Shown here: positions 3,161-16,410 of the stretch, piece after piece | Position numbering within the stretch: the stretch's first letter is position 1 | How the letters are laid out: the number at the start of each line of letters is the position of its first letter | Origin: a virus | DNA: 24,896 bases | Virus record (IMG/VR): IMGVR_UViG_3300043410_000240 | Location: 1 to 24,896 of that record | Strand: one strand, 5' to 3' | The notes under the pieces: generated by a model | Databases searched by the model: none | The model's input: the letters and a program-made list of their open reading frames with translations, nothing else | Told to the model about the DNA's origin: nothing | Translations under genes and position numbers: made by a program

Positions 3161-4273
3161 CTACCTAAAAAATTTGCCAACCATCCAACAAACTACGCTG
3201 TATCGTTCGCCTTCTGTCACATCTTCAACGCCATGCATAATGAACGAAGGAAACACCAGCACAGTGCCTTTGCTTTGTGGCGGGTAAAAGCGTTCGTGCC
3301 CATCTTGCAAGAAGAATTTACCGCCACCAAAATTATCGTTTAAAAACGCTAAAACCGTCAATTTGCGGCATTCGTCACCATGCTGAATAAATGTGTCCAC
3401 ATGGGCTGTATATCGCCCACCAGCGGGATAGGCAAGAAACTCAGCTTGGTTAGCATGGGTAATATCAAACTTCCACGCATGATGGTTTGCAGACAGCCCC
3501 ACAGCCGCCAATCTGCCACCAATGTCTTTGTAGGTGGGCAACATTACACGCTTAACATTTCGCACTGACAAGTCAATTGCGCCAGTACCCGTGCCAATCA
3601 CAGGCGGTTCTTTTGGCACTGCGTCTTGCGTGTATAACTTAATTAAGGCGTCACAGGCTTGCGGTGTCAGTATGTCAGTGAATACACGAAACCGCATATC
3701 GTCAACGGGCAAATTAAGTGCTGGGCGTTTGTCAAACTTCCATTCAGCGTGTGCGCCATCTGCGTCTACATAATGCAAAAAGACTTGTGCTTGCCATTTG
3801 CCTTCTGTGTAGCGTTCGCGCCAATGGTGCTTTTCCATGCCCCTATAAAGCACGGCATCGCCCACAGCCATATCTATGCGGCTTGCGTTTTGTTTGCCTT
3901 CATCGCCCATGTAAATAGCCCACACATCGCCTTCAAACCCAAGGGTCAGCGTTGCGCTTATTTCGCAAGATGGGCGGTCTGTGTGTATCAGCAATTCATC
4001 GTCAGGCGCATACAGCCGTGCGTAGCTGTATGTTGGGTATAGCCGCTTGCCACTTGCTTTTTCAAAGTGCGGCAATAAGTCAACCAGCAATTTATCAAAC
4101 GCCACAGCACCATGTACGGCTTGCGATTTAGGGCATTGCGTGTCTTGCGTAGTTTTTTGTTCGGCAACCAACCTAAACAATTCTGCGGTTAACTCAGCAC
4201 AGGATTCTTTTGCTAAAAAATCTTTAAGATGGACATATTTTTCAACAACAAATTGGCTAAGTTGGTCGCACAT
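3161..4273 (-). CDS. Double-domain 2-oxoglutarate/Fe(II)-dependent oxygenase (370 aa)
   Basis: Two complete 2OG-Fe(II) dioxygenase active sites are visible in one chain. Domain 1 (about 1-175) has metal ligands H97-T-D99 and H149, with K159 ten residues later as candidate 2-oxoglutarate anchor, in YARLYAPDDELLIHTDRP and KHHWRERYTEGKWQAQVFLH. Domain 2 (about 190-370) has a prolyl-4-hydroxylase-like set: H291-V-D293, distal H347 and R357, in YPAGGRYTAHVDTF, LAFLNDNFGGG and FIMHGVEDVTEGERYSVV. Such enzymes hydroxylate or demethylate proteins, nucleic acids or small molecules using O2. The substrate here is unknown. The ATG at 4273 has AAGGA upstream. Sitting between fibre genes and the lysis cassette, it is expressed late and could modify virion proteins or the host surface (inference). 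Confidence 0.88.
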   Translation of the reverse strand: MCDQLSQFVVEKYVHLKDFLAKESCAELTAELFRLVAEQKTTQDTQCPKSQAVHGAVAFDKLLVDLLPHFEKASGKRLYPTYSYARLYAPDDELLIHTDRPSCEISATLTLGFEGDVWAIYMGDEGKQNASRIDMAVGDAVLYRGMEKHHWRERYTEGKWQAQVFLHYVDADGAHAEWKFDKRPALNLPVDDMRFRVFTDILTPQACDALIKLYTQDAVPKEPPVIGTGTGAIDLSVRNVKRVMLPTYKDIGGRLAAVGLSANHHAWKFDITHANQAEFLAYPAGGRYTAHVDTFIQHGDECRKLTVLAFLNDNFGGGKFFLQDGHERFYPPQSKGTVLVFPSFIMHGVEDVTEGERYSVVCWMVGKFFR

Positions 4274-8826: not shown

Positions 8827-9273
8827 TTATTTAATCCAAGTTTCTTCCAGCTTTTCAAAGCCAAACCTATCGTAAGACAAGTCAGGGCTGTTGGTCATTT
8901 TACTTAGGCTAAAAAAATGGATGCGCTTTTCTTGCTTCCATTCCTCGCATTGCTGTATGTAAGCATGAAGCAATCGGTGGGCTGTTTTGCCGCCCCTGTG
9001 TTCTTCATCAACCCAAAAAGCAATTTCACTTACTTGCGTTATGTCAGGATTCCAAATGTTTGGGTGCTGTGCGGCTATGACCATGCCAACAATTTGTTCA
9101 TCTTTTTCAGCCACCAAAATAAATCCAGCACCTGCAAGAATATTGCTTATCAGTTTTTCTATGTGTTCCTGATTGCTGGAATCACGCAAAAATTGGGTGG
9201 GTGCTTTGTCACGATATGCCTTAAGCATTCTGACAATTTCGGGTGTATCAAATTTATTGGCTTGTCGTATCAT
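8827..9273 (-). CDS. GNAT-family N-acetyltransferase in the tail module
   Basis: The 148-residue protein has the full GNAT layout: N-terminal MIRQANKFDTPEIVRMLKAY, central strand FILVAEKDEQIVGMVIAA (51-68), motif A with SEIAFWVDEEHRGGKTAHRL (the acetyl-CoA pyrophosphate loop is R93-GGKTA), and C-terminal YDRFGFEKLE (134-143). It transfers an acetyl group from acetyl-CoA; the acceptor cannot be deduced. The ATG at 9273 has AGGACA upstream, and the gene is closely packed between a distal tail protein and the TipJ-like gene. In lambda this slot holds K and I. The enzyme may act on a tail component or a host protein (inference). Confidence 0.92.
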   Translation of the reverse strand: MIRQANKFDTPEIVRMLKAYRDKAPTQFLRDSSNQEHIEKLISNILAGAGFILVAEKDEQIVGMVIAAQHPNIWNPDITQVSEIAFWVDEEHRGGKTAHRLLHAYIQQCEEWKQEKRIHFFSLSKMTNSPDLSYDRFGFEKLEETWIK

Positions 9274-15184: not shown

Positions 15185-15385
15185 TTATTCCTGTGGTTCA
15201 GGCGGTGGTGCGCTAACTGGGTTATAGCGGGCAAGAACTGTTAAACAAACAAATTCTGTTGTATCAGGCTTTGCCTTGGCAAGCGCGGTAGCAACTTCGC
15301 TGGCTTTCACTTCCAATCCCTGTGCCACTGCATCTAGGGATTGGTAAGTGGTCGCCAACACTTCAACAGCGTCAGCGACTTTCAT
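15185..15385 (-). CDS. Small phage protein after the tail-tube genes (66 aa)
   Basis: The ATG at 15385 overlaps the stop of the second tail-tube gene by one base (TAATG), indicating translational coupling. The sequence is helical (VADAVEVLATTYQSLDAVAQ, ASEVATALAKAKPDTTEFVC) with a proline-rich acidic tail (SAPPPEPQE). I see no known motif. Position suggests a small tail-assembly or structural accessory. Function unknown. Confidence 0.68.
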   Translation of the reverse strand: MKVADAVEVLATTYQSLDAVAQGLEVKASEVATALAKAKPDTTEFVCLTVLARYNPVSAPPPEPQE

Positions 15386-15900
15386 TAAGAGTTACTCCAA
15401 CCGTATTGGTTGCCGCGTGGGTGGATGGTGAACACACACTTGGCTTCTGCGCCGGGTTGTGCATCAATCTGGAATTGACCCACACGACCATTAAAAGCAT
15501 AAGCCACAGTATTCGTTCCATCATAAGCCGCCACTACATAAGTGCGATCTACAAGACCAGAATATGCGTCAGCTCGAATCAACAACAAACCAGCGTCTGA
15601 GGGATTCCATGCCGCAGTGATGGTCATGGAAGTAGGCGCAGATTGTGTTGGGATTTTGTCGCTTTGGCGTGAACCAGCCACCATGAAGTTTGCAACCGCG
15701 TCATCTTGACCAAACGCGGGTACAGCTTCAATGGTTGCCAAGGCAGTGCCAGCCGCGCCTGTACCGCCAGCGGATGTGCCAACGATGGTTGCGACTTGCG
15801 CTGACCATACAGCCAAGTTTGCAGTTGAAAAAGGTGAGGCGGTTGTTTGCATCCACATTGATGCAACAAAACCGGGTAAGACTTTTGAAGGTAATGCCAT
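15385..15900 (-). CDS. Major tail tube protein paralog 2
   Basis: The 171-aa protein starts MALPSKVLPGFVASMWMQTT and shares most of its length with the neighbouring upstream gene product. Residues 58-102 (EAVPAFGQDD ... AAWNPSD) are identical to residues 50-94 of that protein, and the ending (HPRGNQYGWSNS) is nearly the same. Position after the tail terminator and before the chaperones and tape measure identifies both as tail-tube proteins. The variable parts are an N-terminal stretch (residues 15-56, longer and Gly/Ala-rich here) and a short segment near residue 125. The ATG at 15900 has GGAG about 8 nt upstream. It could mix with, or replace, paralog 1 in the tube. Confidence 0.85.
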   Translation of the reverse strand: MALPSKVLPGFVASMWMQTTASPFSTANLAVWSAQVATIVGTSAGGTGAAGTALATIEAVPAFGQDDAVANFMVAGSRQSDKIPTQSAPTSMTITAAWNPSDAGLLLIRADAYSGLVDRTYVVAAYDGTNTVAYAFNGRVGQFQIDAQPGAEAKCVFTIHPRGNQYGWSNS

Positions 15901-15915
15901 TTTTGTTTCTCCAGT

Positions 15916-16410
15916 TTAGACGGTGTTTGTCCAGCCGTATTGATTGCCGCGAGGATGTAATGTAAAGATTGCCTTTGCCTCAGCACCGGGCTGTGAATCT
16001 ATCTGCCACTGACTAGCACGGGCGTTGAAAGCGTAATTCACCGTGCCTGTACCATCGGTAGCCTGAACCACATAAGTGCGGTCTATCGTGCCGTTGTACG
16101 CGTCTGCGCGGATTAACAACAGCACAGAGTCGCTAGGATTCCATGCGGCTGTAATCGTCATGCTTGTGGGTGCGCTTTGCGTGGGGATTTTGTCCGATTG
16201 ACGCGAACCAGCAACCATAAAGTTTGCCACCGCATCATCTTGCCCAAATGCGGGTACGGCTTCCACTTGCACCAAATTGCCGCTGATTGTGATTGCTGAC
16301 ACATTGCCTAGCGTTCCCAATTGCGCGATGGTTAATGGTGTGGGTGTAGCACTTGGTTGTGCATATAGCGAGGCTACAAACCCCGGTAAGACTTTTGATG
16401 GTAAAGGCAT
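15916..16410 (-). CDS. Major tail tube protein paralog 1
   Basis: The 164-aa protein begins MPLPSKVLPGFVASLYAQPS and contains the same conserved core as the gene that follows it, then LLLIRADAYNGTIDRTYVVQ and a terminal HPRGNQYGWTNTV. Tail-tube proteins polymerise as hexameric rings around the tape measure to form the DNA conduit. The assignment comes from size, beta-rich composition and synteny. The ribosome binding site is strong (AGGAAA, 16417-16422, 6 nt before the ATG at 16410), in keeping with high expression. I cannot tell from sequence which of the two paralogs is the bulk subunit. Confidence 0.85.
   Translation of the reverse strand: MPLPSKVLPGFVASLYAQPSATPTPLTIAQLGTLGNVSAITISGNLVQVEAVPAFGQDDAVANFMVAGSRQSDKIPTQSAPTSMTITAAWNPSDSVLLLIRADAYNGTIDRTYVVQATDGTGTVNYAFNARASQWQIDSQPGAEAKAIFTLHPRGNQYGWTNTV

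Follow-up and report, generated by a model that had tools for sequence, protein, structure and literature searches.

Tandem tail tube paralogs of a siphophage family change in concert as proteins while their silent sites diverge

The analyses presented here indicate that two neighbouring tail tube genes, ttpA and ttpB, which are found as a pair in many related phages, encode proteins (A and B) that evolve in concert while their DNA does not. The explanation that we consider probable is an old duplication whose products share one tail tube and co-evolve at their shared interfaces. The window, that is, the whole stretch of DNA that was analysed (24,896 nt, 24.9 kb), holds a siphophage morphogenesis region with every gene on the minus strand. 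The gene order is terminase large subunit, portal, prohead protease, two tandem major-capsid paralogs, connector genes, the two tail tube genes, tail genes, a lambda-type tape measure, tail tip genes and lysis genes. The tail tube pair thus sits between the head-tail connector genes and the tape measure gene, as does the single tail tube protein (TTP) gene of phage P19250A, and an SD-like sequence precedes each of the two genes. The features discussed are collected in Table 1. A 2OG-Fe(II) oxygenase-type protein and a GNAT acetyltransferase are encoded among the tail and lysis genes (3161-4273 and 8827-9273).

Table 1. Positions of the tail tube genes and related features in the window
Feature	Coordinates	Strand	Support or remark
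ttpA, tail tube protein A, 164 aa; class also found in single-copy relatives	15916..16410	-	AF2/Foldseek, gene order
ttpB, tail tube protein B, 171 aa; starts 15 bp downstream of ttpA	15385..15900	-	PHROG 158, AF2/Foldseek
Block in A, residues 50-94 (beta2, beta2-beta3 loop, beta3)	16129..16263	-	
Block in B, residues 58-102; protein identical to A block, 30 silent differences	15595..15729	-	
beta2-beta3 loop of A, residues 52-83	16162..16257	-	54-79 below pLDDT 50 (monomer model)
beta2-beta3 loop of B, residues 60-91	15628..15723	-	64-88 below pLDDT 50 (monomer model)
Class-specific segment of A, residues 13-49	16264..16374	-	5 parallel, 6 antiparallel: concerted change absent
Second concerted region in A, residues 123-164 (beta5, beta5-beta6 loop, beta6)	15919..16044	-	40 parallel, 7 antiparallel (summed)
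Tape measure protein, 696 aa	11463..13553	-	Pfam Tape_meas_lam_C, E 2.8e-14
Tandem major-capsid paralogs, 366 and 449 aa, 41% identity	17887..20340	-	Internal control

Both proteins have the fold of a tail tube subunit. Foldseek searches with the AF2 models (pLDDT 78 for each) gave lambda gpV and a close phage tail as the best matches, with E values of about 1e-4 for A and 1.6e-5 for B against the gpV structures. In profile searches, B matched the PHROG 158 major tail protein (E 1.5e-6) and A matched Pfam PF08813 at E 9e-4, which is sub-threshold and under the gathering score of that family; a sequence search of the solved structures in the PDB returned no match for the tail tube proteins. The models, which are monomers predicted from an input alignment without the P19250A row, show a beta-sandwich with a flanking helix and a long beta2-beta3 loop in both proteins. 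The elements of A are beta2 (49-51), the disordered loop (52-83), beta3 (84-89), the helix (95-106), beta4 (110-118), beta5 (123-138) and beta6 (146-162). In tail tubes, the beta2-beta3 loop makes the inter-ring contact, the barrel and ring interface run along beta2-beta3-beta6-beta5, and lambda residues D61/D62 are needed for ring stacking (PMC8718954). Residues D58-D59 in the loop of A were invariant across the 80-sequence family alignment, and a more distant relative (L378) has GQED where the others have GQDD.

In the window, residues 50-94 of A and 58-102 of B are identical at all 45 positions, and the initial annotation, which had placed these blocks at 16129-16263 and 15595-15729 in tandem paralogs, was exact. 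It had counted roughly two dozen DNA differences between them, all silent; silent they all are, but they number 30 positions in 23 of the 45 codons. The switches between AGY and TCN serine codons that it described are real and affect four of the five serines (A72/B80, A79/B87, A83/B91 and A93/B101) rather than three. Fourteen of the 21 fourfold sites in the block differ between the two genes. Outside the block the proteins are identical at 12 of 37 positions in residues 13-49 and at 50 of 69 in residues 95-164.

The single-copy relatives have a block that is almost the same (EAIPAFGQDDAVASFxVAGSRQSDKIPxQSAPTSMTITAAWNPSD is one example), so that the identity in this window cannot by itself imply co-assembly. 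The extreme protein constraint proposed from that identity holds insofar as the block is conserved, but this conservation is mostly family-wide, with near-identical blocks in P19250A and other single-copy relatives, and the block is not frozen. A family-wide constraint had been named as the circumstance that would make the block unrelated to co-assembly; it exists, yet the two copies vary together between phages. The evidence for the putative co-assembly is this concerted change between phages, not the identity in the window.

We collected at least 372 loci and at least 186 unique A/B pairs from IMG/VR, mostly on metagenomic contigs; the loci are the best 80 matches of each scan, and the sampling is biased toward the queries. 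In the 186 pairs, A and B were always in tandem on the same strand, almost always 8-16 bp apart. Block identity between the A and B of one phage averaged 0.946 (94.6%), a mean difference of 2.4 residues, against 0.864 for A-A, 0.877 for B-B and 0.867 for other A-B comparisons between phages. The block therefore varies from phage to phage, with the two copies varying together. Fourteen pairs had blocks identical at 45 of 45 residues; these blocks represent nine different sequences, among them QAVPAFGMDDAVANFSVAGSRQSDKIPVQSAPTSLSVTASWNPAD, so that the identity is not due to chance. In a MAG contig outside the data set (L376), A and B both carry VANFSVAGARQSDKIPVQSAPTSLSITAAWNP. Residues 13-49 behaved in the opposite way, with an identity of 0.454 between own A and B, 0.684 for A-A and 0.736 for B-B (186 pairs). 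This segment is class-specific, contrary to the suggestion in the initial annotation that outward-looking segments differ freely.

The 186 phages were then arranged into 93 tree-disjoint phage pairs, using FastTree trees built from the tube genes themselves, and positions were scored where both copies differed between the two phages. A change was called parallel when A and B shared their state in each phage and antiparallel when the change was opposite. Across these contrasts the block showed 45 parallel against 2 antiparallel residue changes (P=8e-12), and residues 95-164 showed 58 against 14, while residues 13-49 gave 5 against 6. The fourfold silent sites of the same block gave 36 parallel and 41 antiparallel changes. 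These counts show that concerted evolution takes place in the proteins but not in their DNA, a result for which gene conversion fails to account. The outcome was the same with a nucleotide tree (42:2). As a control for branch-length artefacts, 39 same-side and 5 opposite changes were counted at homologous positions, compared to means of 4.6 and 3.7 (same-side maximum 9) when B was shifted against A so that non-homologous positions were paired. The capsid paralogs of the same phages served as a second control; their own identity was 0.406 against 0.401 for other pairs, with 37 parallel and 23 antiparallel changes. Since the capsid pair shows almost none of the effect, the concerted signal is not a general property of tandem paralogs in these phage genomes. 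Together, the non-homologous positions, the silent sites, residues 13-49 and the capsid paralogs rule out a generic artefact that would come from setting paralogs of related phages against each other. P19250A also has tandem HK97-type capsid paralogs (genes 0005/0006 by position), as do nearly all of the loci whose length allows a judgement, and one of the two may be a minor or vertex form.

When assigned to structural elements, the parallel and antiparallel changes numbered 28:1 in the beta2-beta3 loop, 16:1 in beta3, 14:4 in beta5, 13:1 in the beta5-beta6 loop and 13:2 in beta6, compared to 6:4 in the helix and 4:4 in residues 18-48; parallel changes were not concentrated in beta1 or in residues 18-48. 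The elements that change in concert are the contact surfaces that would be expected in a tube. The initial annotation had singled out the constant block for structural mapping. This block comprises beta2, the beta2-beta3 inter-ring loop and beta3, and concerted change extends beyond it to beta5 and beta6.

Each class of tail tube protein has a single origin. Once the concerted sites were removed from the tree, all 186 B copies split from A and the single copies. In the full tree, which contains every copy, the B proteins are nested within A, a placement that is taken as an effect of the concerted sites. In a tree rooted with a distant relative, A plus the single copies formed one clade (support 0.999), the position of the root among B being uncertain. 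A distant single TTP, encoded by a contig in a Nitrosotalea MAG (L379, 8001-8519), is B-like in the 13-49 segment, and from this resemblance B may be nearer to the ancestral form and A derived. The capsid-gene tree shows at least 13 changes in the number of TTP genes, indicating that the tail cassette has been exchanged between phages. Because single-copy phages build their tails from an A-type protein alone, B is not essential in the family.

Copy number is also associated with the tape measure. The median tape measure length is 795 aa in two-TTP phages and 602 aa in single-TTP phages, and the two-TTP member has the longer protein in nine of nine independent contrasts (median +142 aa, some differences being small). 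The tape measure sets the tail length of siphophages, so phages with paired TTPs probably have longer tails.

We propose that ttpA and ttpB arose when a tail tube gene of the lambda gpV type was duplicated once, long ago, and that their products would be built into the same tail tube, touching within rings, between rings, or both. From the pattern of substitutions we infer that the virion contains both proteins and that they are in contact. The surfaces used by every tube subunit (the beta2-beta3 inter-ring loop, beta3, beta5 and beta6) would have to stay compatible; a substitution at a shared contact in one copy would select for the same substitution in the other, while silent sites would drift apart. 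Segment 13-49 would lie off the interfaces and retain its A or B identity. As to the arrangement, we lean to mixed rings (such as ABABAB) over stacked A and B rings or a B end ring, since barrel strands, which make contacts within a ring, are among the concerted sites; the concerted change of these strands suggests that A and B may form one pseudo-hexameric ring. As a counterpoint, the barrel strands also line the lumen, and a shared partner such as the tape measure or DNA could give the same pattern.

The strongest alternative, which we nevertheless regard as unlikely, is that A and B are not in contact and that a common third partner (tape measure, lumenal DNA, tail terminator or distal tail protein) drags both along, for instance if B formed only an initiator or cap ring. 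In its favour, beta3, beta5 and beta6 of the concerted set would line the lumen, and tape measure length tracks TTP copy number. Special end-ring paralogs are also known in contractile systems, such as Afp1/Afp5 and T4 gp19/gp54. However, among the strongest sites is the inter-ring loop, whose contact is with the neighbouring ring and not with the lumen, and a cap ring would touch A itself, which leads back to the contact between A and B proposed above.

Parallel adaptation without contact, in which each protein independently tracks host, temperature or water chemistry, appears very improbable. The contrasts do set phages of different habitats against each other, but such adaptation should not bring identical residues to matching positions of A and B and yet spare residues 13-49, and it should affect the capsid pair too.

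Hardly any weight is left to repeated old gene conversion, by which the block would have been homogenised with its silent sites diverging again later. It would likewise make the copies alike within a phage, but a parallel excess at silent sites is absent from the block even in close contrasts (distance below 0.1, orthologs differing at 22% of fourfold sites), where the residues of the block plus 123-164 gave 19:2 and the silent sites 31:39. Of 222 matched residues, only 102 were encoded by the same codon, silent sharing was not enriched near parallel residues (9 against 6.6 +- 2.5 expected), and no DNA run shared by A and B was longer than the between-phage maximum. Fourfold sites matched between A and B at 0.35 within a phage and 0.32 between phages. 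Within the resolution that silent sites, shared runs and local silent identity allow, gene conversion is thus refuted for the block. The initial annotation had argued for an old duplication and against recent gene conversion, and both conclusions are borne out by fourfold sites near saturation, by the balance of silent changes in the block and by the lack of an excess of long shared runs. Some extra silent matching was found in the first 12 codons (15865-15900 and 16375-16410), where fourfold sharing, unlike that in the block, was 0.548 within and 0.411 between phages; this could be due to a start-region constraint or to short conversions.

Plain family-wide constraint on functionally unrelated copies, although real and visible in the single-copy relatives, has next to no chance of being the sole explanation, as it can yield neither a within-phage identity above that of orthologs nor the 45:2 parallel changes.

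If the proposed explanation is true, two paralogs changing in step at ring contacts constitute a natural hetero-tube, and at least 186 virus pairs provide an unusually clean natural record of duplicated homomers locked by a shared interface. The link to tape measure length suggests a route to longer tails, and the concerted residues are a ready list for assay in an expression system. A wider statement is one that we make tentatively, as slightly more doubtful than even: the tail tubes of a widespread family of freshwater phages would be hetero-oligomers of two separate subunits that co-evolve, an unfused equivalent of the tubes of T5 and P74-26 that is maintained by co-evolution of the interface in the absence of gene conversion and is linked to longer tails.

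The tail tube of siphophages is usually drawn as a single repeated protein, and in a mainly non-subscription literature we found no report of separate, co-evolving tail-tube paralogs. Chains A and B of Sf11 in the PDB were rejected as a two-TTP precedent, its paper giving one TTP, gp24. Among known systems, lambda gpV and its relatives share with A and B the fold, the beta2-beta3 loop that is disordered in the monomer, the gene order ahead of a lambda-type tape measure and the invariant Asp pair in the loop (D58-D59 here, D61/D62 in lambda; PMC8718954). They differ in that here two separate genes co-exist, without the C-terminal Ig domain. The closest named genome, Methylophilaceae phage P19250A (KX815270), has the same gene order and the same tandem capsid paralogs, with a single tail tube gene whose product is 66% identical to A and a tape measure of 594 aa against 696 aa here. 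A hetero-hexameric ring of two tube-fold paralogs is indicated, by PDB title only, for Hcp2-Hcp3 of the Bacteroides fragilis T6SS (PDB 9vnd), which is a secretion-system ring and no phage tail. Duplicated homomers that share an interface respond to selection in a correlated way through structural pleiotropy (Marchant et al. 2019, PMC6711710); that work dealt with dimers, in yeast and in silico, whereas the substitutions described here are natural parallel ones in a virus tube. In the TTPs of T5 (pb6) and P74-26, a duplicated tube domain is fused in one chain, giving trimeric, pseudo-hexameric rings (PMC8718954, PMC10034513). There, as would be the case here, an ancestral duplication placed two non-identical tube domains within one tube; ttpA and ttpB, however, are separate ORFs rather than two domains of one polypeptide, and while the domains of P74-26 are 16% identical, the contact surface here stays nearly identical.
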